From Boothiomyces macroporosus (taxonomy: Eukaryota > Chytridiomycota > Chytridiomycetes > Rhizophydiales > Terramycetaceae), in NCBI GenBank assembly GCA_027604185.1, contig JADGKB010000204.1:1-12959 (forward strand): DNA of 12,959 nucleotides, read 5' to 3'. A program made the translations under genes and the position numbers. A model generated the notes under the pieces. That model made no database searches. It saw only the letters and a program-made list of their open reading frames with translations, and had not been told where the DNA came from. Below are positions 1 through 12,959 of the stretch, in pieces. Position 1 is the first letter of the stretch; every line of letters starts with the position of its first letter.

Positions 1-78
1 GACTTCATCTTCATCAAGGTTGAAAGATAATTCCTCCATTGTATCACTGTGATTTCCCCTGATATCTGGATTTACCAT
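1..78 (-). CDS. Start of an acidic protein, cut by the window edge
   Basis: An ATG on the minus strand at 78, in the favourable context CGCAATGG, opens a frame of 26 codons that runs off the left edge without a stop. The visible residues are rich in Asp and Glu near the end (ELSFNLDEDEV). No domain can be recognised from so little. The region upstream on this strand (79-156) is A/T-rich and contains no in-frame extension worth claiming. It could be the N-terminus of another transposase or of an ordinary gene. The call rests only on the open frame and start context. Confidence 0.35.
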   Translation of the reverse strand, partial: MVNPDIRGNHSDTMEELSFNLDEDEV

Positions 79-144
79 TGCGAAAAAGATAAGCAGGAAG
101 TTGAAAAAAAAACTTTAAAACCTAGAAACCAAAAATCTCGTCCA

Positions 145-177
145 TTAGGTTTTTTGTTAAAACCTCAAAAAACCTAA
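145..177. repeat. Perfect 12-bp inverted repeat (hairpin)
   Basis: TTAGGTTTTTTG at 145-156 is the exact reverse complement of CAAAAAACCTAA at 166-177, with a 9-nt loop. Further AAAACCTA motifs occur on both sides (about 115-200). It lies at the stop codon of the broken minus-strand gene at 157, so in that gene's transcript it would form a stem in the end of the coding region or the 3' end. It has no T-tract like a bacterial terminator. It may be a small decayed repeat. Confidence 0.55.
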
Positions 178-665
178 GTTTATAAAACCTAGTATCTTCA
201 TCCCTGATTTTTTACGCTTCAAATCTTTCTGCATATTTTCTATACCGATAGGATCATGATCAAGCTCGAACCATGCAAGCCACGAGAAACAAAAAGTATG
301 ATACGGATTGATTCTTACTCTAACGGATTCAACTTCACAATCTTGGCATGAACAACAAAGTACTCCACTCCCATCGCACATACGGGAAGATTCCTGAGCC
401 TCGCGATTAAACATGTCCAACTTCTCTTTTGACCACTTGAGACTCTTTATGAGCTGTAGAATTTCTGAGTTGATTTCCTTCGTTTTCTCCAATCTCGTTT
501 TCGACAGTTGCAAACGGCTCTTTGCAATGTGGATAAAATATTCCTTCTTCGATTTAAGAGATTGAAGTGATTTCTTCCCTTAAATGCCTTGAACCAAGCT
601 GGATCGTCATCAATCGAATCTTTTGAGGGAAGTGGATCGGTGGACGCAGCAGTGAAGATCACCAA
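157..665 (-). pseudogene. Broken gene of unknown function (coiled coil plus Cys-rich segment)
   Basis: Two overlapping minus-strand frames look like one protein split by a frameshift near 570. The first is open from 710 with no ATG and reads an acidic stretch (SKDSIDDDPAWFKAFK). The second begins after a TAA in its own frame and reads a Lys/Glu-rich segment that would form a helix or coiled coil (for example LSKTRLEKTKEINSEILQLI). It then reads a cluster of five Cys residues within about 15 residues (MCDGSG then CCSCQDC) and a Trp/Phe-rich end, with a stop at 157. A one-base indel at AAGGGAAG (about 571) would join the frames, and no convincing splice pair was found. I do not recognise the family. 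It lies 95 bp downstream of the CD-NTase-like gene on the same strand, so it could be a decayed third member of that locus, but nothing in its sequence shows this. Confidence 0.35.
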
Positions 666-759
666 CTTGATAAAAGACCCTTGTCTTCCTAATACATAAT
701 TTATTCCATTTTATTTATCATCGCCTACTCTCCAAAGTTTCAAATATCAATCTATCAGT

Positions 760-1620
760 TCAAAACCCAAATATATTATTTTCTTGAAATACACTTACTA
801 CTTCCTCTATATTTCTGCAGGCATTAATTGAATGTAAAATTGGATACATTATCTTACGGATAGATGTCACCCTATTAAACTTCTTTTCTCCTTCTCCGGA
901 AAAATCAAAATATTGATTTGCCTTCAATGCTTCATAAATGAACGTTGACTGGTCGCGTAAGCATTCTAGGTTGTATTTTGAAATATCATAAATATTTAGC
1001 GCAGTCCATGAACCTATTAAAGATTGAATTTGACGCGATGTTAGTTTTACCTTTTTTGCTAGCACGATTCTTTTCCAAGTCCTTACAAAGTTTTTGAAAT
1101 TAGGAAAGATTCTATTGAGCTCAATTAATCGGCTGTAGTCCATTAAAGCATCAGTCACTATCCATGATTTCCCTTTCTCATTGGGAATTAATAGATACTG
1201 AGTAAGTTGATTGTTTCTAATAATTCGAATGGCGGGTGTTATATCGATTGGGACAGTTTTACCTGAAGTATTACCTCGAATAGATGCGGTTGAAGTGTAG
1301 ACAAAAGAAGGGTAATCCACTATTCCATTTCCTAATACATTTTCAATTTTCCTGAAATACTTAGCATGATTCATGTAGTCTATAATATCGTCAGTTATAG
1401 GAGATTCTTCAAAATCCCAGAAATAGGGTTCTTCAGGAAATATAAGTAGGTAATCAAAATCTGGTCTGTGTATAGCTAAAGCTTTGGATGTACTTCCAAT
1501 TTCTTTGATATCTCCAAGTACATTTAATTTATCCGCTGTTTCATTAGCCTTGGTTTCTCGTTGGGAATGGTATTCCTTTGTATTTACAGCTTTGAAAAAC
1601 TCTCTCCATGTATAATCCAT
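760..1620 (-). CDS. CD-NTase/OAS-like nucleotidyltransferase
   Basis: 286 residues, ATG at 1620; an in-frame TAA 15 nt upstream makes this the first possible start. The nucleotidyltransferase core is visible in order. GS at residues 42-43 lies in the motif EIGSTSKALAI. The paired metal-binding acids D54 and D56 follow in RPDFDYLLIF. The third acid, D126, is in VPIDITPAI. The downstream pattern (IPNEKGKSWIVTD, about 145-157, then LNRIFPNFKNFVRTWKRI) matches the helical half of CD-NTases and oligoadenylate-synthetase relatives, where a conserved R..K.W helix precedes the C-terminal bundle. Known family role: making cyclic or linear oligonucleotide messengers from NTPs on sensing infection. Other pol-beta-type enzymes (CCA-adding, poly(A)) are possible, but the IDITPA motif and the adjacent SLATT gene favour the CD-NTase reading. 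No intron or break is seen. The product and trigger are unknown. Confidence 0.8.
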   Translation of the reverse strand: MDYTWREFFKAVNTKEYHSQRETKANETADKLNVLGDIKEIGSTSKALAIHRPDFDYLLIFPEEPYFWDFEESPITDDIIDYMNHAKYFRKIENVLGNGIVDYPSFVYTSTASIRGNTSGKTVPIDITPAIRIIRNNQLTQYLLIPNEKGKSWIVTDALMDYSRLIELNRIFPNFKNFVRTWKRIVLAKKVKLTSRQIQSLIGSWTALNIYDISKYNLECLRDQSTFIYEALKANQYFDFSGEGEKKFNRVTSIRKIMYPILHSINACRNIEEVVSVFQENNIFGF

Positions 1621-2225
1621 TTCTGATCTGGTTTAATTTTTTGACCGAAAAGATAGACATCTCAAAAATTAGCAAAGAAGACATTAAAAATGAAGCTATG
1701 AAGATTATTGAAGACTGTACCTATTCCTCTAAGAAGTATTTTAACGATGCTGACACTTTACATGCAAGACATGAATCCATTTCAAATTACAGCACATTTC
1801 TTTCAGGTTTTACTGGAGTTACTGGTATGGTAGGAGTTGGAAGTTTTCAAGAAACTATGATGAAGAAATTCCCTTCTATGAAGTATCGTATGTTATTTTT
1901 CGGCGTTTGTAGTATTGGAGGCTTTACTGTATCTGGATTAAACATTCTATTAAAAAGCCAAGACCACTTATCAAAATCAGTAGCAGCTAGAAAAATTGGG
2001 GGAGAATATTTATCCTTACGAAAGAGGGTTCAATTTTTTATGAATTTAGAACTACCTAATATTGAAATTGATGGTGCTATTAAGTCCTTGAAGGAATTTA
2101 AGGAAACAAATATTGATATTGATAATAGGAATCCTCCACTATTTTATGCAGCATCTTTTACGAAGGCACAAGAGGGAATAGAACGCGGAGAAGCAACCTA
2201 TGCAAATGAAGAAAAGAATGAATAA
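1608..2225 (+). CDS. SLATT-family two-transmembrane protein (predicted membrane effector)
   Basis: 205 residues. ATG 1608 is the first Met after an in-frame TGA at 1593; Met at 1695 is a possible shorter start (176 residues). Two hydrophobic segments are visible at about residues 60-81 (STFLSGFTGVTGMVGVG) and 94-116 (MLFFGVCSIGGFTVSGLNIL), separated by a short basic loop. Before them is an amphipathic helix ending ARHES, and after them a basic helix (AARKIGGEYLSLRKRV). The end PPLFYAASFTKAQEGIERG fits the Pro-Pro...KA...I..G tail of SLATT (SMODS and SLOG-associating 2TM) domains. In bacteria SLATT proteins accompany CD-NTases and are predicted to act at the membrane, probably as pores or channels; fungal SLATT families also exist. 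The gene is head to head with the CD-NTase-like gene, the expected partner. The hAT element begins soon after its stop, so the 3' flank may have been replaced. Confidence 0.82.
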   Translation: MYNPFLIWFNFLTEKIDISKISKEDIKNEAMKIIEDCTYSSKKYFNDADTLHARHESISNYSTFLSGFTGVTGMVGVGSFQETMMKKFPSMKYRMLFFGVCSIGGFTVSGLNILLKSQDHLSKSVAARKIGGEYLSLRKRVQFFMNLELPNIEIDGAIKSLKEFKETNIDIDNRNPPLFYAASFTKAQEGIERGEATYANEEKNE

Positions 2226-2328
2226 GAGTAATAAATCTTATATCAAGGATGAATTGAATAAAAGAACATCGCTATGCGCACCCCATTCTAAGGTAGTTGA
2301 AAGAAGAAGAAGGAATGCCCATAAACAC

Positions 2329-4174
2329 TCACCAAAAGTAAAGCATTTGGAATGTAACTACTGTGGCGAATTTTGTGTACAATGGAACAAAAGGCATGCT
2401 TGGCCATTTGCGAACAAAGCATTTAGACAAATGTTCTAATATTCTTGAATCAGATAAAAAACTCAAAGCAGAAAAAGCGGCGTTAGCTCAAAGGAAATCC
2501 CGTTTTTTTGACCAATCCAAGATGATATAACCATTTGATCTAGATGTATTCATGGGGAAATTGCTTACCTGGATCATCAAAACTAACCAACCATTTTCAG
2601 TAGTAGATGACCAATACTTTATTGATATGCTAGAGTATTTAAAGAGAGGAACTCTAGAACAACGATCATGCGTAGATTAGAGGAGATGTATCACGAAAAG
2701 CGATTGCAGTTTTTAGAAAGATTAAAGTCATTCAGCTCAAAGTTCTCAATAACCACAGATATATGGACAGCCCCAAACAATTTGTCATTCTTATCCGTCA
2801 CAGTGCATTATATTGATGATAATTTGCAAAAACACGATGGATTAATGGCTTTTAAATATCTTGAAGTTGAACATTCAGGCGAAGAATTGGCAAGCGTATT
2901 GATTGATATCTTGGAAAAACATCAAGTAGCAGATAGAGTTCTGGGGATTACAGCTGATAATGCTTCAAATAATACAACTATGATTGAGCATATGGAAAAA
3001 TTTTATAATCGACAGTATCCTGAAGCTGGATTTAGCCTTGCGTGGAACAAAATAGAGTGTTTGGCACATGTATTGAATTTAGCTGCAAAGGAAATTCTGG
3101 AACCATTTAAAGGAATAATTTCAAAGAATGATGATCCAGATTCGCGTGATACTATGACCACCGCTATCACAAGAGTGTCTAAATTAGTAAGAAAATTCAG
3201 AGGCACTCCAAAAATCACTAGGCTTATGAAAAGGTAAACGATGTTTAAGAGTCAGAATTGCCAAGGAGAATGACGAGTTGTTCCTAAAGTTAATACTTGA
3301 TGTACCTACACGTTGGAACAGTACTTTGGACATGTTGGAAAGATTTTTAGAATTAAAAGAGCTTATCAGAAAAACCATTTATATTTTGGAGGATGAAGAG
3401 GTGACAAAGATGCAGCTCAAAGTTAAGCATTGGATCTGTATTTCAGAATTAGTTTCCATTTTATCACCACTAAAGAAGCATACACTCACAGTATCTGGAA
3501 GCGGCTCAAACTACTTTGGCATAACCAGGTCGCTAATGTGCTATCATCAATGCTTAAAGCATCTCCAAACTTATTCCATAAAGTATGATGAATCTGAAGA
3601 TATCAGTATTGGAATTAATTGTGCCATAGAAAAGCTCATTCACTACTATGATCAAATATCTCCAATGGTTGGTATTTCAGTCATGTTAAACCCGAATATG
3701 AAAAAGAAGCATTTTAAAATCGTCCTTGATTGGAAAGACGAATGGATTAAAAGTGCAGAAGAGCGCTTTGAAGACAGTTTCAGTTTCTATAGTAACAAGC
3801 ATTCTTTACAAGTTGTTGAGCGACCCAAGAAGAAGCAAAGAGCATACAAAGACTTTGTTGAAAGTGTTGATATGATACTCTTTGACCAGTACGAAGAAGA
3901 AACCGTCGATAATGAAATTGACGCTTATTTTGGAGAAAAATCAAGTGCGATTCCAGATATTTTGGGATATTGGAGGGATAACGCAGCAAGTTACCCGATT
4001 TTAGCAGCAATGGCCAAAGACTATTTGACAGTGCAAGCGTCTAGTGTCCTTTCGGAAAGGGCATTTTCATCGGCTGGCAATTTAGTAACATTCGATAGGG
4101 CAAGATTAAAAGGAGACACTATCGAAATGGTTCAATATTTAAAATATCATATATTACAAGCACCTACGAAATAA
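2329..4174 (+). pseudogene. hAT transposase, BED zinc finger, several frameshifts
   Basis: The reading frame changes at least three times. The BED finger starts at about 2340 (CNYCGEF) and is broken near 2393. Its second half (GHLRTKHLDKCSNI) continues in another frame from 2396 and meets a TAA at 2528. The next part (QPFSVVDDQYFIDMLEYL) runs to about 2655. The catalytic region 2668-3237 carries the first Asp in TTDIWTAPNN (codon at 2758) and the second in ITADNASNN, followed by the C..H helix ECLAHVLNLA. After a shift near 3235 the RW motif (DVPTRWNST) and the C-terminal dimerisation domain follow (YWRDNAASYP, SVLSERAFSSAGN, stop at 4174). A hAT transposase excises and inserts DNA through a DDE-type RNase H fold. 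This copy cannot make an intact protein without several corrections, so it is dead as an autonomous element. Confidence 0.88.
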
Positions 4175-4212
4175 ATTACAAAGTCCAATTTTCAAGTTTT
4201 TAAATATATATC

Positions 4213-4295
4213 TTGGGGATATATGGGTGGGATGGGATGGGGATCACGTCCAATATGGGACGGGTTGGGATAAAGATTTCCCTGCCCCATCCCTA
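4213..4295 (+). repeat. G-rich subterminal repeats of the first hAT element
   Basis: Repeated GGGA/GGGT units occupy the last 80 bp of the element. GGGTGGGATGGGATGGGG (4225-4242) contains four runs of at least three G with 1-2 nt loops, a standard intramolecular G-quadruplex pattern. TGGGACGGGTTGGGA follows at 4256-4269. The terminal CCCTGCCCCATCCCT (4280-4294) is complementary to the upstream G runs, so the end could also fold into a hairpin. Subterminal repeats in hAT elements are known as transposase-binding sites; that role is assumed here. Confidence 0.6.
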
Positions 4296-4419
4296 CATCT
4301 AACTGGCATATAGATTTTCCTTTTATATCGCAAATTGTACCCTTATTATAAAGATTGAAAATTTCTCAAGGTTCAATTTTTTTTTCTTTTTCGTATTTAT
4401 GAACTGTATTGGTTACTTC

Positions 4420-4486
4420 GACTTCAAATGCGAAATCACGGTTTCTTTATTTCAAAGGCCGGTTTATTTGCGAGAATACGTTAGTA
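4420..4486. mobile_element. Solitary right end of a TA-inserting element
   Basis: The sequence GGTTTATTTGCGAGAATACG followed by TTAG (4461-4484) and a TA (4485-4486) matches the right terminus of the MITE-like element at 7302-7325 with one mismatch in 24. The bases before it (GGTTTCTTTATTTCAAAGGCC) match the internal GGTCGTTTTATTTCAA units of that element. No opposite end was found nearby on either strand. It is therefore a truncated relative, with its left part lost or replaced, perhaps by the neighbouring hAT element. Confidence 0.6.
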
Positions 4487-5389
4487 ATAATCACTAACAA
4501 GATTGTTTACTATGTGTATATTTACAGTAAGAGCGACCTTAATGAAAAGCAATATTCAATTGATTACATGAAATATACATGAGGCCAGTAGAAAAGTGAT
4601 GTTATTAATACAATTGGCCATTTTGAAATTGAATTGGTGAATGTTGACCTGCGAAATAACTTTGCAGAATTCCGATTAAATTCATCACCTTTGATTAAAG
4701 TAATATTTTGAATCTTAATGATTAATTAACATTCTCTACTGATGAACGACACCAACAAAAATTATTTTCATTGTGTGTACGTACTACTATTAGATGTATA
4801 TGATAAATCAAACACTAGTAATAAACAGGAATCCTTGATATATTGAAGCATAGATATCAAGATAAATACAAGTAACCAACCATTGAATTGACAGTTTGCA
4901 TTATCCTCTATATAAACCTAGGTTCACCGCATCCAATTATACTCAAGAATCACTTATTTAACGTAAGGCAAGGTGTGTTTTGCAAGTTTACCCATTAGCC
5001 TTTAAATTATAAAGATTTTGTAATGGTTTGAACTGAATCACAAGAGGTAAATGTAAAATCACTGACTTTGATGAATTAAAACTCTTTAGCAGTGATTATT
5101 ATTATTTTCAAGGCATAATTCGCATTCTTTTTCTTTGGTATGGTGATAGAAAACCTTAGCACAATCTATTTGAATACTATTTTAAAATCAGAAATAGTAT
5201 CGCATAGCTGCCAAGTAATCTCGGTATTATCAGTGCAAATTATCTTTGTACACAGGCTATTTGTTCTTTGCACATGTTCAAAAGATAGTACAATTATATT
5301 TGTTGAATACCGAGTAGAGGAAGTTTAAAACAAAGTGGTTTTTGATAATTACAATTAGATTTGGATAACAACGCTTGGAAAACCATTTA
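4487..5389. other. About 900 bp without a supported gene
   Basis: AT-rich sequence. A 62-codon open frame exists at 5140-5328 (plus) but has no recognisable motif, and the opposite strand is equally open, so neither is called. A TATA-like site lies at 4909. CCAAT-type pentamers occur singly (for example ATTGG at 4613 and 4635). No RNA gene, long repeat or transposase remnant was recognised. Confidence 0.5.
4909..4916 (+). promoter_or_regulatory. Possible TATA box with no downstream gene
   Basis: TATATAAA at 4909-4916 is followed by a C/A-rich stretch ending ACTCAAGAATCACTTATTTAAC and then GTAAGG at 4962, which could be a 5' splice donor. The ATGs that follow (5024 and 5069) open only very short frames. 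It may be the promoter of a decayed or non-coding transcript, or chance in AT-rich DNA. Confidence 0.2.
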
Positions 5390-5557
5390 TTAACGTCCAT
5401 CAACACATTGAAAACTAACAGGAACGTTAGAACGCTTATCAATTATTCCCGCTAAGCAAGCAAGCCCCTTGTTACAGTCAGAGTGTTTAGTGCATGGAGA
5501 ACCAACACCACCAGCAGCAGCCAAGCCCAAAAGTACAAATACGAAATTATATTTCAT
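5390..5557 (-). CDS. Small secreted Cys-rich protein (55 residues)
   Basis: ATG at 5557, TAA at 5390-5392. Residues 1-19 form a clear signal peptide: a Lys at position 3, a hydrophobic core (FVFVLLGLAAAGGV) and a small-residue cleavage region (GVGS) near 19-20. The mature part is about 35 residues with four Cys at 22, 28, 34 and 51 (CTKHSDCNKGLAC, then FQCVDG), a spacing like small disulfide-knotted secreted peptides. Four Cys would allow two disulfides. Fungi that live with plants encode many such small secreted proteins, some acting as effectors; no specific function can be assigned. The gene has a TATA box (5587-5594) and shares a CCAAT-rich promoter with the divergent thioredoxin-like gene. 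A short intron to a further downstream exon cannot be excluded, but the present stop gives a complete small protein. Confidence 0.7.
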   Translation of the reverse strand: MKYNFVFVLLGLAAAGGVGSPCTKHSDCNKGLACLAGIIDKRSNVPVSFQCVDGR

Positions 5558-5586
5558 TTTTTATGTGGAGAACATTACTTGAACTC

Positions 5587-5594
5587 TATTTATA
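5587..5594 (-). promoter_or_regulatory. TATA box of the small secreted protein gene
   Basis: On the minus strand the sequence reads TATAAATA, 30 bp upstream of the ATG at 5557. With usual TATA-to-start spacing the 5' leader would be only a few nucleotides long. The same close arrangement is seen at the divergent gene (TATA 5883, ATG 5915). Confidence 0.55.
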
Positions 5595-5627
5595 TGCAAA
5601 TGAGGGACCTTGATTCTACAATAATCA

Positions 5628-5869
5628 CCCAATCAAAATCTACCCACATGGGAGCAGAAGTACAAATTTTAGTTTGTGTCTCAATCACAAGAATCAGCCA
5701 ATCAAAATAATCAAGAAATTACGGTTTGTGTCTCGATCACAAGAATCGGCCAATCAAAATAATCAAGAAATTACGGTTTGTGTCTCGATCACAAGAATCG
5801 GCCAATCAAAATTAAAGAAGTTTGTGTCTCAATCAAATGAATTATCCAATCAAAATCTGACCACATGGT
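5628..5869. repeat. 52-bp tandem repeat carrying CCAAT boxes, shared divergent promoter
   Basis: Two near-identical 52-bp units (5672-5723 and 5724-5775) are followed by a shortened unit (5776-5819) and a diverged one (from 5820). Each begins GTTTGTGTCTC and contains CCAATCAAAA. CCAAT pentamers lie at 5629, 5698, 5750, 5802 and 5846, giving spacings of 69, 52, 52 and 44 bp. An outer pair of related segments, AATCAAAATCT..CCACATGG followed by AGTACAAA, occurs at 5631 and 5850, so the array probably grew by duplication inside one promoter. CCAAT is the site of the HAP/NF-Y complex, which works in either orientation. The array sits between two divergent genes, each with its own TATA box. Confidence 0.75.
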
Positions 5870-5882
5870 AAAAAGTACAAAC

Positions 5883-5890
5883 TATAAAAG
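5883..5890 (+). promoter_or_regulatory. TATA box of the thioredoxin-like gene
   Basis: TATAAAAG at 5883-5890 lies 32 bp before the ATG at 5915, just downstream of the last CCAAT box (5846). The stretch in between is A-rich (CAACAAATAAAA) and ends TCCAAAATGACC, a good fungal start context. Confidence 0.6.
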
Positions 5891-5914
5891 CAACAAATAA
5901 AATTTTCATCCAAA

Positions 5915-6603
5915 ATGACCAACCCAGACATTCCACCAAGCAGAAAAGCGATTCCGAATTGGAAATATGATCCAACCGAAATTCCAAAAGACCAACTTCG
6001 CGCATTCTATAACCTTCATTATGAGATATTTGTAGTAAGGAATAATTATTTCACAGTTAAAGATCCAGAAAATCCAACTTTCGAAGAATTATGTGGTTAT
6101 TGGAATAAATATCAGCAATTTCACTGCGATTATATTTACCCGATAACCGGATCCAACTTTGATTATTCTATATTTGATGGAGCAAGTTACCTTAATGATT
6201 TGAAAGTTTCCACTCCAACAAAAACTTTGGTTGTATTCTGTAATTTTATATTAACTTTGATTGGAGTACTTCATGTGGGTTTTCAATTCCAACTATGCAA
6301 GACGTTTCAAAAATGCTACCAGAAAATGCCCAATTGGTTTCCGTTAACATGGATAGGGGTTTATATAGAATTTTAGCAGAGAATGGTAACCATCACACTT
6401 TTAGTTTGGAAAAAGTTAAAGCAAAATTAGAAGAAGCTCCTCAAGACATTCCACATATTGTGGATTTTGATGACAGGTTTCATGATATTTATCACATCAA
6501 AGCGCCTCGGTGTAGGTTCATCCCTGCTCTTCTCGTAGTGGAAAATGGTAAAGTTAGTTACATGGGACAAGTCGAATATTGGAAAGATTTGGTAAAAAAC
6601 TAA
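5915..6603 (+). pseudogene. Thioredoxin/redoxin-like protein, interrupted at its active site
   Basis: The first part (ATG 5915 to about 6239) has no recognised domain for about 100 residues and ends in the first thioredoxin strand, TPTKTLVVF. The second part, in another frame from about 6263 to the stop at 6601-6603, gives WSTSCGFSIPTMQ, where the Trp and Cys match the FWxxxCxxC region of redoxins (second Cys replaced by Ser). It continues with LVSVNMDRG and then IPALLVVENGKVSYMGQ, the cis-Pro strand and glycine hairpin of the fold. Removing exactly 23 nt (6240-6262) would join F to W in a perfect redoxin motif. That segment starts GTAATT and contains TTAAC like an intron, but ends ATT rather than AG and is very short. 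A 62-nt intron ending at CAAG (6301) would keep the frame but delete the active site. So this is either a mutated gene, an odd mini-intron, or a form without the redox centre. It is divergent from the small secreted protein gene. Confidence 0.6.
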
Positions 6604-7666: not shown

Positions 7667-9685
7667 ATGCGAATTCTAGAAAGTGAATCAGAACTAGAGG
7701 AATTAGTGTCGGAAATAGAAGACCGGATGCCGATCGATGCTGAAATTAATGCAGCTCCTGCAATAGAAGATGTGGAAGTTCTACGTGCAAATGCAGTGTC
7801 AGATGCTTGGCTATGTTTTGATAAAGATAAGAAGTACAAAAAAAATGGCGTTGATGTTGTCAAATGTAATCAACCAAGCTGCGGTAAGGAATTAGTCCTC
7901 AATCCTTCAACCGCCTCTAACTTGGCTCGTCATGTTGGAAAGGTTCATTCCATACTTTTACCAAAAAAGAAAAAGAGTTAAAAAATTGAAGCAAATGAAT
8001 ATATCCTTCTCAGGCAAAGGAGAAGTTATTCCTCATTTTTCTCAAAGAGCATTCCTCCAGTACTTAACCACGTTGTTTGTTGTTGAAGATCTTCCATTTT
8101 TGCTGGTAGAATCCCCATCATTTAGAAGGTTCATTCGGCTAATGCGTTCAGAGGTTCAGGTTGTAAAGGCTGATGCATTGAAAAATTAAATTATGGACAG
8201 ATTCAACAAAATGAAGATTGAAATGAAAACCTTCTTCTCTTCCATTGATTCCCGTATATCATTTACTACAGATATTTGGACTTCGCCAAACGACTTGGCG
8301 TTTATGGCTATAACCGCCCATTGGATATCTCCCGATTTTGTAATTCATAGCATGTTGATGGACTTTGTTCAATTATTAGACAGTCATTCTGGAGTAAATA
8401 TCGAAAAGGCATTCTCTCAATCATTGAAAGATTTTGGAGTATTTGATAAAAAATTGGCAATTACATTAGATAATGCTTCCTGCAATGACAGTTTCATAGC
8501 TGCACTAATGGAAACAGACCCATCATTCGACAAGGAGCATCATATCCGCTGTTTTGGACATATTTTGAATCTTAGTGCCCAAGATGCCTTGGGATTAGTG
8601 CAAGAAGAACTTTCTGGTATTCGGGACTATATTAAGGCATCATTCATAAACCGAAAAGATTACAGCAATTGAAGGATGACTTTGAAGAAGCAGGAGGGAA
8701 GAAATTCGTCAAGCCAAAGTTGGACGTGAAGACACGATGGAATTCAACAGCTGAAATGATAATTAGGGCGATTCGGCTCAAAGACGGACTAAGCACTACG
8801 ATGGACTCAATGTTCCACGAAGCCGCAGCGAGGAAGAAACGCAGAGGCAAATATGGAGGTATTATTGATAATGGGGATGAAACATTCGTTCAAGTCAGCG
8901 AAGAACATTGGATGAACTTTGCTGATAATCTTGAAATTTTGGAGCCGTTCAAGAGTAGCACCGAGATGGTGTCTGGAGATAGCTATCCTTCTTTGAATAT
9001 GGTTGTACCTGTTTATGTAGCTATTTTGGACCATCTGGAGAAATTATCGTCTAGTAGTAGTGATTCTTCGATTTATAGCGAATCAAACTTTAAGGTTGAT
9101 GCGTCAAAAGCTGCGCTCATGAAGTTAAACAAGTACTACGACGTTTCTTCGGAACTTTGTACAATCGCGACAGTTTTGGATCCGAGACTTAAATTGGAAT
9201 TCTACAAGGCTGACAAAAATCCTTCAGCGGACAATCATGAAGAAATTCGATCTTACGTGAAGAGTTTCTACTTCCGAGATTACGCTCCTTCAAAATGTGA
9301 TGAGCCACGAAACCCATCCCCCACAAAACCAAGTATACTCAAAAAGTTTTACAAGAAATCCACCACCGCTGAAAAATCAGAAATTGAAGTTTACCTTTCT
9401 GAGCCAGTGGAGGAGGACCATCCAAATTTTAAAGTCTTGGACTATTGGAAACTCCATTCTGCCCGTTTCCCAAACTTGTCCAGAATGGCAAGAGATTATT
9501 TGGCTGTTCCTGGAACTTCTACTCCATCTGAAAGAGCATTCAGTGGAGGGAGACAATTGATTACTGATTTTCGCTGTAGCCTAGCCGGTGAGACCATTAC
9601 AGCTTGTATGTTGCTCAAAACCTGGTTACAGCAGTGGGATGATGTTATTCAACCTCGGCTAGGAACTATTACTCAAAATTTATAA
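7667..9685 (+). pseudogene. hAT transposase with BED finger, lightly damaged
   Basis: Domains in order: an acidic N-terminus (ATG 7667, ESESELEELVSEIEDRM), a BED zinc finger (KCNQPSCGKE then ARHVGKVH, about 7860-7950), a linker, then the first catalytic Asp in TTDIWTSPND and the second in ITLDNASCND. These are followed by IRCFGHILNLSA, the RW motif DVKTRWNST, and the dimerisation domain (YWKLHSARFP, STPSERAFSGGRQ), with the stop at 9685. Three lesions are visible. There is a frame change in the A-rich run at about 7962-7980, an in-frame TAA at 8187-8189 just before IMDRFNKM, and a frame change near 8650 between FINRK and RLQQLKDD. All else is intact, so this copy is much younger than the first hAT remnant. 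Confidence 0.9.
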
Positions 9686-9866: not shown

Positions 9867-11192
9867 ATGAATGATCTAATGAATCAATATTTGCTTAAAC
9901 TATTCGATACTTTTGATTTTCCAATTGTAACTGGCGATCAAGCCAGAGAAGCTATTAAACATTTAAAGGAGAATAATAGGGTAAATTATAAAACAATGGC
10001 GTCAGAAGTAGGTTATTCAGCAAGTCATTTTTCTAATTGGAAGAACAATCCACAATCAAAAATGCCAGACATACAAAACAAAATAATTCAATGGCTCAAC
10101 TTACCTTATCAGGAAGAATTGAATAGGATTGTAACAAATGAAATACTTGCTGATTTGGGCAAACAACGCCAAGTAGAAGTAACCCAGACAACCGCTAAGA
10201 ATACTTCGGCCAAGAAGCCTGCAACAAAGAACAGTAGGAATGATGTAGAGCAACCAAAGAAGATTCACCAAGTTGAATCACCAAAACAAATGGGAAACCC
10301 AAAATCTCCAACTAATTCAACTGCAGACATTTTAAATGAAGAATCTAAACCAAAAGTGAATTATACTGTTAAACCAAATCTTAAGCCAGAGTCTCCAAAC
10401 CAATTTTCTGGCAAACAATTTTCATATCAAAATTCTATTCAATATGATAGGGAGAAAAGAGTGTCAAAGACAAATACTCGTAATTCTTTTGCAAGTTTCA
10501 ATGTTGACTACACAAAAAGACTTACAGACCCAAATACGAATAATAGTATTAGAAATAATTACGTTTTTAAAGCAGGTGAAGTTTCAAGAATCATATCTAA
10601 GGATTTTAAAGTACCTTCCATATTTTCTGTGGTTGAACTATCTGGAGGCAAGAAATTTGAAAATGCATTGATAGATGAATTCAAATCAAAAGGAGTTTTT
10701 TCATACCACTATCGTATACAGTATGACTCTAAAGAATATTATGCACAAATTTTTACTGGCTGGAATATAAACAATTACAAATACGTAACCTCTGTGCCTA
10801 CTAAAAAAAAGAGGTATATGGCAACAATACTTTACGATATTAATCAAAAAGAAAATATCATACATTTTTCAGCTCACTTTCCACGCATTAAAGAAACTTG
10901 GGAAAGTATGGCCAGTGATATATTAAATGTTTGGGAACTTTCCACTACTAAACATGAATGTTCACGGATTTCAATTGCTGGAGATTTTAACAAAGAACCA
11001 CAAGAAGTTCTTCAAGCCTTTCCAGAAATGACTGCAATGCTCTGTGATAATTCTAGGAAAACTACGACCGGTGATAATTCATTTGACAACATTTTAGTAG
11101 AAAATGACTATTATAGAATTTCCGATTCATCTATATTGGAAGGAGTTGCTTTTACCCATTATCCAATTTTTGCTGAAATTACAGAAAAGTAG
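9867..11192 (+). CDS. HTH-like plus endonuclease/exonuclease/phosphatase (EEP) domain protein
   Basis: 441 residues, intronless. Residues about 24-78 look like a helix-turn-helix: AREAIKHLKENN, then YKTMASEVGYSASHFSNWKN with the usual A..VGyS...S.W spacing. Residues 100-200 are a Lys/Ser/Asn/Pro-rich linker with basic clusters (AKKPATK). The EEP fold follows with its motifs in order: N212 in ASFNVDY, E257 in FSVVEL, the HFSAHFPRI strand at 333-341, GDFN at 372-375, D407 in DNILVEN, and H431 in THYPIFAEI. The usual SDH is FTH here, so the Asp that pairs with the catalytic His is missing. EEP enzymes hydrolyse phosphodiester or phosphomonoester bonds (DNases, AP endonucleases, LINE endonucleases, phosphatases). 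An HTH fused to EEP suggests a DNA-directed nuclease, or a transposon-derived gene; no reverse transcriptase follows. The hAT element sits just upstream. Confidence 0.72.
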   Translation: MNDLMNQYLLKLFDTFDFPIVTGDQAREAIKHLKENNRVNYKTMASEVGYSASHFSNWKNNPQSKMPDIQNKIIQWLNLPYQEELNRIVTNEILADLGKQRQVEVTQTTAKNTSAKKPATKNSRNDVEQPKKIHQVESPKQMGNPKSPTNSTADILNEESKPKVNYTVKPNLKPESPNQFSGKQFSYQNSIQYDREKRVSKTNTRNSFASFNVDYTKRLTDPNTNNSIRNNYVFKAGEVSRIISKDFKVPSIFSVVELSGGKKFENALIDEFKSKGVFSYHYRIQYDSKEYYAQIFTGWNINNYKYVTSVPTKKKRYMATILYDINQKENIIHFSAHFPRIKETWESMASDILNVWELSTTKHECSRISIAGDFNKEPQEVLQAFPEMTAMLCDNSRKTTTGDNSFDNILVENDYYRISDSSILEGVAFTHYPIFAEITEK

Positions 11193-11284: not shown

Positions 11285-11884
11285 ATGATATCATATAAAT
11301 TACAAATGGTTAAAGAAGCATATGATAGTTATGTTGAACAATCAAGGGGGAAGGATAAAGTAATTCCTCCGACAAAAGTTGATTTAGCAAGGCGAGTCAA
11401 GACTCTTATTGACTATAAAAGAAAAGAAGAATTGGAAAGTCTTAGAAAGAGTGGTTGTGATGAAGATTATGCCGATAAAGAGCAACTGCTAACAGAATTG
11501 ATTGAAATGATTGATAATCTGGAGGTTACCAGGAAGGAAAAAAAGGCAAAGGAAATTAAGCTTGATATTGAGGGTGGAAAGATTAGAGAAGCTGCAATTC
11601 TTAATCTCAATTGTTCGCCACCTTCTACCCCAACCCCATCCTCTGCTAAATCTGTTAATCAAAGAAAATCAAACTTGCACATGCAAATGTTGGAACTTGA
11701 CAGACAGTCACTAAAATTACAATCACAGCAACATGAAGAGGATATAAAAATACGAAAAGAAGAATTGGAGGTAAGAGGATGGAGGCCGAGAAATATGATA
11801 CAAATCCTTGGCGATACCCAAAAAAGTATGTTGGAGTATCTTCAGAAAGTAAGTGGTAAAGCCATTCATTTATTGCATCTTTGA
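11285..11884 (+). CDS. Harbinger-associated coiled-coil accessory protein (probable)
   Basis: 199 residues. It has a charged helical N-terminal part (MVKEAYDSYVEQSRGK, LARRVKTLIDYKRKEELESL), a Pro/Ser/Thr break (SPPSTPTPSSA), and a long Gln/Glu/Lys helix (MLELDRQSLKLQSQQHEE) ending in MIQILGDTQKSMLEYLQKV. This layout is like the Myb/trihelix-type second protein of PIF/Harbinger elements, which binds DNA and helps the transposase. However, the Trp-rich Myb repeats are not seen, so the DNA-binding part may be missing. An ATG at 11269 opens MQSEEDDII and stops after nine codons in a neighbouring frame, which may be the true N-terminus separated by a one-base change. Its 3' end overlaps the convergent transposase by 15 bp. 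Confidence 0.45.
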   Translation: MISYKLQMVKEAYDSYVEQSRGKDKVIPPTKVDLARRVKTLIDYKRKEELESLRKSGCDEDYADKEQLLTELIEMIDNLEVTRKEKKAKEIKLDIEGGKIREAAILNLNCSPPSTPTPSSAKSVNQRKSNLHMQMLELDRQSLKLQSQQHEEDIKIRKEELEVRGWRPRNMIQILGDTQKSMLEYLQKVSGKAIHLLHL

Positions 11885-12913
11885 TGTAACTGTAAACAAG
11901 TATTCTGCAGCAGTAGGCGGCTGGCAAGAAAACGCAGAAGAACAAACATTCCCTCTGTAACAGGTGAGAAGATTTTGAAGCAATACGGCAACGATATAGT
12001 ATTTTCCAATTGGTTGAAGATAAATCTTGAGATTTTTTTTGAAATCAACAAAACTCCAATTGCTAACTACACCACCAAAACACCATTCTACTGAAACTCT
12101 TACACTACTCATCCTTTTGTTGAAAAGTTGCTGTTGATCATTCAGTTGAGTTCCTTTAAATGGTGCAACTATATTCTTCCTCATTCCATATGCAGGATCA
12201 CCATATATTACGTATGTCTTTCCATCGACTTGTAGCGATTCCTGAAGAATTGGCAATAGATTGCTCTCTACCAGCATCCTAACATCATGTCTTTGACCCT
12301 CATAAGGACCACTAAAATGCGTAATTATTCCATCTGGAGTGTTTACTGACTGGAATTTTAATCCGTGAGTACTTTTGTGTCCATTGTAAGTTGATTTCTG
12401 ATATTTCGTTGGTCTGCATATTGGTCTAAGTGTCCCATCAATGAACCCAATACAGCAGTCAATTGGACTCCCTCTATTGAAAATTGCCTTGCTGAATTCT
12501 TGTAATTTCTCACTAGTTAATCTGCGAACATCCCAAACCAGCAGTTCCTGAAATTTATACATATGTTCAATCATATAATTGATTATCCTGGACAGTTTGT
12601 GTGAAGATATTCCAAAAAAATGCTGCAGATCAATAAGCCTACATGGGTAAGCAAATCTCTTTAATAAAATACAAAGTGCTGTGAAACTATCTACCACAGC
12701 TCCATTGTCCAATATAACTTTTGGGGGAATCTTCAACAACAAAACCAATTCAACTATTTCTGCTTTGGTGAATCGGAAGTGTTGAGGATAACTGTCTTCT
12801 CCAAAACCATCTGGAGTCCACTCAACTAGAGTTGGTGATTCATCATAATCTTTCTCTAGAAGAGATAAGAGTAGAAGTCTACGCGACTTGATTCTTCGAA
12901 TAAAGTGTTTCAT
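11870..12913 (-). CDS. PIF/Harbinger DDE transposase
   Basis: 347 residues from ATG 12913; the frame stays open to the window edge, so an upstream extension or exon is possible. The N-terminal part is helical, with a helix-turn-helix-like segment (LIDLQHFFGISSHKLSRIIN). The DDE domain (DDE_Tnp_4 type) shows D159 in CIGFIDGTLRPI, the conserved GLKFQSVNTPDGII and PYEGQRHDVRML, D239 in VIYGDPAYG, and E276 in VSVEWCFG. These are the three catalytic acids of PIF/Harbinger enzymes, which cut and paste DNA into TA-rich 3-bp targets. No stop or frameshift is seen in the core, so the enzyme could be active. The far C-terminus (CYRGNVCSSAFSCQPPTA) looks unlike the family. The right end of the element lies beyond the window. 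No left terminal repeat was recognised between 11193 and 11284. Confidence 0.88.
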   Translation of the reverse strand: MKHFIRRIKSRRLLLLSLLEKDYDESPTLVEWTPDGFGEDSYPQHFRFTKAEIVELVLLLKIPPKVILDNGAVVDSFTALCILLKRFAYPCRLIDLQHFFGISSHKLSRIINYMIEHMYKFQELLVWDVRRLTSEKLQEFSKAIFNRGSPIDCCIGFIDGTLRPICRPTKYQKSTYNGHKSTHGLKFQSVNTPDGIITHFSGPYEGQRHDVRMLVESNLLPILQESLQVDGKTYVIYGDPAYGMRKNIVAPFKGTQLNDQQQLFNKRMSSVRVSVEWCFGGVVSNWSFVDFKKNLKIYLQPIGKYYIVAVLLQNLLTCYRGNVCSSAFSCQPPTAAEYLFTVTSKMQ

Positions 12914-12959
12914 GATAAGAAAAATTTGAAGTTGCAACTGTACAAGCAAAAGCCACAAA

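Follow-up and report, generated by a model that had tools for sequence, protein, structure and literature searches.

The window analyzed in this work is the whole of contig C204 (12,959 bases) in the 15.2 Mb assembly of Boothiomyces macroporosus, a chytrid of the Rhizophydiales. It carries two ORFs lying head-to-head, each without interruption: a minus-strand frame of 286 aa for a predicted CD-NTase-like nucleotidyltransferase and a plus-strand frame of 205 aa for a predicted SLATT_4-type membrane protein. An initial annotation, made from the DNA letters, had described both frames as intact and their arrangement as divergent. The two frames are indeed open over 760-1620 (minus strand) and 1608-2225 (plus strand), and the divergent layout was confirmed. 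The features of the contig are as follows.

760..1620, minus strand: CD-NTase-like nucleotidyltransferase ORF, 286 aa, intronless (assigned by PADLOC and hhalign)
1608..1620, no strand: overlap of the starts of both ORFs, head-to-head, 13 bases
1608..2225, plus strand: SLATT_4-type membrane effector-like ORF, 205 aa, candidate start (assigned by PADLOC, NCBIfam and hhalign)
2226..4174, plus strand: split hAT transposon adjoining the 3' side of the SLATT gene, two ORFs, left edge set by eye; context, outside the pair
8193-9685: second hAT-type element on the same contig, read by eye
11870-12958: DDE transposase, frame open, with a second, 100% identical copy at another place in the genome

The longest ATG-to-stop ORF in 300 order-1 Markov sequences of window length had 154 aa at most, and 205 aa was reached in none of them (0/300). 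The lengths of both ORFs are beyond chance expectation. With these ATGs, the 13-base overlap of the starts leaves no room for an intergenic promoter region. No further copy of the enzyme gene or the SLATT gene was found in the genome. The initial annotation had also placed the pair among decaying transposons. This is right for the hAT copy next to the SLATT gene, which is split into two ORFs (Dimer_Tnp_hAT matches the second with E 6.2e-16), and wrong for the DDE transposase, which is open and has a perfect copy. Elsewhere in the genome, no DNA match to the hAT element at 2226..4174 was found. The pair as transposon cargo was considered and rejected, as no convincing terminal inverted repeats were found within positions 1-6000.

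Both genes resemble bacterial families and the contig is short, as would be expected of a bacterial contaminant in the assembly. The GC content and tetranucleotide pattern, however, fit the chytrid genome. The window has 35.4% GC, slightly low compared to 35.9-39.9% in 12 sampled genome stretches, and its mean tetranucleotide correlation is 0.42, compared to 0.42-0.54 for the 12 genome samples and 0.05 and 0.11 for two bacterial loci. The identical copy of the DDE transposase at the right contig end lies at the end of C178, a contig whose ORFs, judged by eye, look like ordinary fungal genes (presumably homoserine acetyltransferase-like and Erv1-like, among others). The window contig carries hAT elements as well, and the bacterial SLATT proteins that were found are only 25-29% identical to the one studied here. 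Based on the genome-like composition, the C178 transposase copy and the hAT elements, it was concluded that contamination is extremely unlikely. The fungal host assumed at the outset is borne out by the composition and the C178 copy.

PADLOC model PDLC00712, labeled 'Effector, 2TM' (a label which we take to belong to CBASS), matched the window SLATT protein with E 6.5e-19, and the PADLOC matches of this protein are to 2TM or reverse-transcriptase-associated SLATT models. NCBIfam SLATT_4 matched with E 4.3e-12 (46.1 bits, below the cut-off of 55). Pfam models gave no match at E up to 1, SLATT_4 and SLATT_fungal (PF18142) included; PF18142 also found no match in the genome, where the positive control was silent as well. 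In a search of 5.8 billion proteins with the SLATT protein, three were found: its own public entry P0002, P0003 (68%) and P0004 (59%). P0004 lies above both curated SLATT_4 cut-offs (NCBIfam 59.6 vs 55, Pfam 27.2 vs 27) and P0003 lies below both. An hhalign comparison of three fungal-type sequences with nine bacterial SLATT proteins, hand-picked from 18 with near copies omitted, gave a probability of 98.8% and E 1.1e-16, and the two sets aligned almost end to end. No match was found among phages searched with the SLATT protein. These comparisons support the small protein as a homolog of the SLATT_4/2TM effectors, in agreement with the SLATT type assigned in the initial annotation. Three features were marked within its gene.

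1791..1847, plus strand: first hydrophobic segment, residues 62-80, weak (Kyte-Doolittle mean 1.06)
1896..1952, plus strand: second hydrophobic segment, residues 97-115, strong (Kyte-Doolittle mean 1.70)
1883..1912, plus strand: 30-base stretch without counterpart in P0002 (HK103_002906), the public protein, as though removed by splicing

Two transmembrane segments had been read in this protein. By hydropathy the second is strong in the window at 1.70 and the first weak at 1.06; in P0003 and P0004 both segments have values of at least 1.5. Two such segments were also seen in 48 of 2000 shuffles. P0002 was reproduced exactly from the ATG at 1698 when bases 1883-1912 were omitted. The omitted bases overlap the second hydrophobic segment. 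P0003 and P0004 retain this stretch, and it is therefore probably coding. The start of the SLATT gene is uncertain, because codon 1653-1655, which aligns with the ATG of P0003 (alignment read by eye), is ATA, and upstream in the same frame a single ATG, at 1608, comes before a stop and falls within the enzyme ORF. The same two observations, together with the hAT and DDE elements on the contig, would suit a pair that was recently active and is now decaying in this strain, its SLATT start lost, its starts overlapping and transposons closing in. With 286 and 205 codons open and the conserved residues in place, we regard such decay as very unlikely.

In bacteria, relatives of the SLATT protein were found next to nucleotidyltransferase genes. 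The only plasmid match is in Methylobacterium radiotolerans, in which the SLATT gene is followed directly by a nucleotidyltransferase gene. Its product matches a PADLOC cyclase model with E 2.1e-109 and Pfam SMODS with E 2.3e-40. One genome from each of 84,980 prokaryote species was scanned, which yielded 17 SLATT relatives, all in Pseudomonadota and 25-29% identical; the scan used two peptide patterns, so closer bacterial relatives may be missed. In 16 of the 17 loci a CD-NTase-like ORF lies directly 3' of the SLATT gene on the same strand, overlapping it or one base apart (the exception is L028, which has no such ORF after SLATT). These CD-NTase-like genes were recognized first from their motifs and afterwards with a profile that some of them had helped to build, and 16/17 represents fewer independent cases due to near copies (L013/L014, L015/L017/L020 and the Mesorhizobium group). 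Two-gene CBASS has the same layout.

The motifs of a Pol-beta-like palm, G[ST]...DxD and a third acidic residue, are all present in the window enzyme, at the following positions.

1489..1497, minus strand: GST motif, residues 42-44, first motif of the Pol-beta-like palm
1453..1461, minus strand: DFD, residues 54-56, presumed first and second metal-binding carboxylates, aligned with bacterial DxD
1243..1245, minus strand: D126 in PIDITPA, presumed third carboxylate

The GS, DFD and third Asp listed in the initial annotation are thus in place. Among 28 bacterial CD-NTases aligned with the window GST, 27 have GS at this place and one has GG. Two relatives of the enzyme were found, P0001 (60%) and P0005 (51%). 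GST and DFD are invariant in both, and the position of D126 is Glu in both. Glu is also found at the third-carboxylate position in four of the 28 bacterial CD-NTases (L012, L055, L058 and L059).

PADLOC Cyclase model PDLC00802 matched residues 125-189 of the enzyme with E 3.3e-5, and PDLC00823 matched with E 9.1e-4. Five PADLOC models gave matches to one or more of the three enzymes (window enzyme, P0001 and P0005) with E values of 5 or less, and each of the five is an oligonucleotide cyclase model. The window enzyme showed no meaningful Pfam match and is above no curated family cut-off. SMODS (PF18144), Mab-21 (PF03281) and OAS1_C (PF10421) were unmatched by all three enzymes at E up to 10, a setting at which the filters remove most matches above about 0.1. 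P0005 has weak Pfam matches below cut-off to NTP_transf_2 (E 0.0052) and to the MTPAP-like palm of mitochondrial poly(A) polymerases, PF22600 (E 0.011). BLASTP of the window enzyme against the Methylobacterium enzyme gave E 0.074, which is not significant. The enzyme found no match among plasmids, a sequence search of the PDB gave no meaningful match, and viral contigs searched with alignments of both proteins contained no relatives.

The enzyme was further compared by profiles. Against 14 diverse bacterial CD-NTases, hhalign scores were 44-50 with a probability of 83-90% (four lead sequences). When the columns of the query were shuffled 200 times and compared with two of these four versions, the means were 14.4 and 14.6 and the maximum 22.2. 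Against 28 diverse CD-NTases, a target without shuffle control, the scores were 46-61 and the probability 80-95% depending on the lead sequence, and the similarity stops near residue 190. These 28 were hand-picked from 49 CD-NTase-like ORFs; copies, ORFs from stop-containing loci, fragments and one weak match were omitted. The first hhalign target, made of SLATT-partner enzymes alone (10 of the 17 were chosen by hand), gave 4%, compared to 0.25% for an unrelated control. The CD-NTase signal emerged once more diverse CD-NTases entered the target profile. A sequence profile of 14 bacterial enzymes scored the window enzyme at 16.1 bits, P0001 at 15.9 and P0005 at 7.9, and the best of 900 shuffles reached 5.3.

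Random seven-member CD-NTase profiles scored 25-57 in 15 of 15 cases vs 14-22 for three rival profiles, which were made from a small, mixed set (E. coli PcnB, Cca, GlnD and GlnE and three pieces of chytrid MTPAP-like genes). With single sequences as targets, a chytrid MTPAP-like protein (22.5) outscored 22 of the 28 CD-NTases (best CD-NTase 29.5), and the separation is therefore by profiles only. Identity as a housekeeping transferase was rejected on the comparison with the rival profiles. A grouping with housekeeping transferases, which the initial annotation had named as the outcome that would speak against it, was not seen among those tried. The best seven of the 28 CD-NTases in the single-sequence comparison include five SLATT partners, which are mutually close relatives. 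This ranking as proof of co-transfer was rejected, as the scores are mostly near noise and one rival stands above 22 of the 28.

A profile of the three fungal-type enzymes retrieved none of the known CD-NTases of six bacterial genomes, nor did any of 556 ORFs from the collected loci match it at E < 0.1; this profile is therefore too weak alone to find CD-NTases. The enzyme tree suggested in the initial annotation was built with three fungal-type and 28 bacterial enzymes. The fungal-type clade sits on a branch of 3.8 substitutions and is unplaced (deep fork 61/46), and the alignment behind the tree is visibly off beyond about residue 168. The results support a CD-NTase-like enzyme of low similarity, extremely divergent and without placement inside the family. 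They also support, by profiles, that it is nearer to CD-NTases than to the small set of other nucleotidyltransferases. The original CD-NTase assignment thus stands at the level of profiles, with no curated cut-off passed and single sequences failing to separate the families.

For P0001 (enzyme) and for P0003 (SLATT) the longest contig has exactly the same length, 14,513 bases, and P0003 occurs on a single contig. From the identical figure we infer that the two share a contig, and the enzyme-SLATT pair is probably linked in a second genome too. Of the three outcomes that the initial annotation had named as refuting it, none was seen, the linkage of the pair in one relative being likely. The relatives would be from other chytrids. 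It may be argued that the two genes are neighbors without joint function, namely a nucleotidyltransferase exapted for RNA tailing or development and a SLATT protein, likewise exapted, that abut by chance. The great divergence of the enzyme and the absence of an operon would fit, as would the weak MTPAP-like match of P0005 and the chytrid MTPAP-like protein scoring above 22 of 28 CD-NTases as single sequences. The Glu at the third carboxylate in two relatives would also fit, but the same residue occurs in 4 of 28 bacterial CD-NTases. Sixteen of 17 bacterial SLATT relatives have a CD-NTase-like partner and the 14,513-base contig probably retains both genes together; chance adjacency of two partners of one known system would be a rare event. 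Unrelated neighbors are therefore an unlikely explanation.

CBASS type I is defined in PMC10419184 as one cyclase plus one effector gene. One cyclase and one effector are found side by side in the window, as judged by homology only; the single operon and the prokaryotic host of type I are absent, the window pair being divergent and located in a chytrid. Because these two features are lacking, the pair was not filed as CBASS. It resembles bacterial type I CBASS (the Methylobacterium radiotolerans plasmid and the 16 Pseudomonadota loci) in that a CD-NTase-like enzyme adjoins a SLATT_4 protein, the SLATT protein is homologous over its length at about 25-30% identity, and the enzyme has the motifs GS, DxD and D/E. 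It differs in its fungal host, in head-to-head overlapping starts vs SLATT then CD-NTase on the same strand, in the extreme divergence of the enzyme, and in the SLATT protein, where the spacer between the hydrophobic segments is longer by about 20 residues.

Taking these comparisons together, we consider it reasonably likely that a two-gene (type I-like) CBASS module is the ancestor of this eukaryotic pair, which would consist of a CD-NTase-like synthase and a membrane effector. A common origin with the bacterial SLATT and CD-NTase operons by horizontal transfer is suggested, and the two products may be functionally coupled. Several observations were counted against a CBASS-derived pair: the divergent genes with overlapping starts vs the same-strand bacterial operons; the BLASTP E of 0.074, the lack of a passed cut-off and the 4% of the first profile comparison; and the 3.8-substitution branch, the silent fungal-type profile and the MTPAP-like resemblances. 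By analogy, the pair most likely works like CBASS. The minus-strand enzyme would make a cyclic or short linear nucleotide second messenger upon some trigger. The SLATT protein would bind this product, oligomerize and damage or permeabilize a membrane, and the infected or otherwise stressed chytrid cell would stop or die.

The logic of such a circuit could also be inverted. In Panoptes (mCpol plus 2TM-beta), as described in PMC12657230, a nucleotide cyclase is likewise combined with a two-TM protein, and a cyclic dinucleotide can inhibit a bacterial 2TM effector. In a chytrid version, a constantly made nucleotide would keep the 2TM protein quiet and its loss would lead to cell death, as in a toxin-antitoxin-like guard; a tight head-to-head pair would suit such a relation. 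The Panoptes enzyme, however, is Cas10-like and its effector has a beta-barrel (PMC12657230), whereas the PADLOC matches here are to oligonucleotide cyclases and to 2TM or reverse-transcriptase-associated SLATT models. We regard the inverted arrangement as quite unlikely for the window pair.

Among eukaryotic systems, the cGLR (cGAS/Mab21), OAS and eSMODS superfamilies described by Culbertson and Levin (PMC10732462) share with the window enzyme a CD-NTase-like palm in a eukaryote and a probable bacterial origin. Unlike them, the window enzyme has no Mab21, OAS1_C or SMODS match and has a membrane effector-like neighbor. In that paper, the eukaryotic CD-NTase pathways described act via STING or RNase L, Fungi are named among the groups in which many species lacked the surveyed immune homologs, and SLATT is not named in the main text. 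Fungal PNP-STING (PMC12424679) is another bacterial-type nucleotide-signaling immune part in fungi. It is described there as a receptor without detectable cGLR, whereas in the window a synthase-like gene and an effector-like gene are adjacent. SLATT_fungal (Pfam PF18142) is by its name a SLATT-type family of fungi, so SLATT proteins in fungi as such are not new. The window protein matches SLATT_4 models instead and adjoins a CD-NTase-like gene. A full-text search of the openly licensed literature found no paper on CD-NTase plus SLATT in fungi or on CBASS in chytrids, and in the wider literature none of the titles among the matches listed is about a fungus with this kind of pair.

The pair is real and unusual, a couple of a synthase-like and an effector-like gene in a chytrid that is probably derived from CBASS. 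More tentatively, with somewhat less than an even chance in our estimate, chytrids may keep a complete, working CBASS-derived pair of nucleotide alarm and membrane suicide, divergent with overlapping starts, as a STING-free eukaryotic synthase-plus-2TM-effector module. If true, an entire signal-effector circuit, beyond single parts, can pass from bacteria to an early-branching fungus. The pair would then offer a small, testable system for the re-wiring of a circuit without operons, and it would draw attention to an antiviral or self-killing response of chytrids that is so far unexplored.

The public counterpart of the SLATT protein (HK103_002906) is reproduced by a start at 1698 and a 30-base splice at window 1883–1912 (+), and this splice would take ten residues out of a membrane segment. 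Conservation in relatives speaks against the start as well as the splice. For this window's copy of the CD-NTase-like enzyme, no public protein was found among the matches listed in the homolog searches. The starts of the two divergent ORFs (enzyme and SLATT protein) overlap at window 1608–1620, so the promoter of each would lie within its neighbour unless a 5' exon is missing. Other features of the window:

157–513 (−): DFF40-like ORF, weakly matching PF09230 (DFF40/CAD nuclease domain)
5664–5863: 52-base unit repeated in tandem, roughly three to four times
9867–11192 (+): 441-aa ORF with a bacterial-type helix-turn-helix (HTH_19) at its start
11870–12958 (−): DDE_Tnp_4 transposase, second copy on another contig of the assembly (C178:19022–20107)

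The DFF40-like ORF shares the enzyme's strand and lies downstream of it. The match (E = 3.4e-5) covers PF09230 positions 83–148 of 225 and scores 24.1 bits, below the cut-off of 25. The ORF is probably a remnant. A genome search found no DFF40-like stretch besides this one.

The 52-base repeat is found just upstream of two overlapping ORFs (5915–6603), which on visual inspection resemble a single gene interrupted by an intron. The HTH_19 match in the 441-aa ORF (E = 4.3e-4) is under the cut-off; the C-terminal half looks, by eye, endonuclease/exonuclease/phosphatase-like. The second transposase copy is identical and located at the end of its contig: either the element has been active recently or the assembly was broken at a repeat.

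Among 17 bacterial SLATT relatives, one SLATT_4-like gene, from a Polaromonas MAG (L028:3971–4483), is the sole case without an adjoining CD-NTase. In another bacterial genome, a weakly matching SLATT-like ORF (L058:2324–2935, E = 7.3e-7) is found near a CD-NTase-like ORF (L058:1501–2382). These two ORFs are a possible further SLATT/CD-NTase-like pair, in which the enzyme would be of another type.
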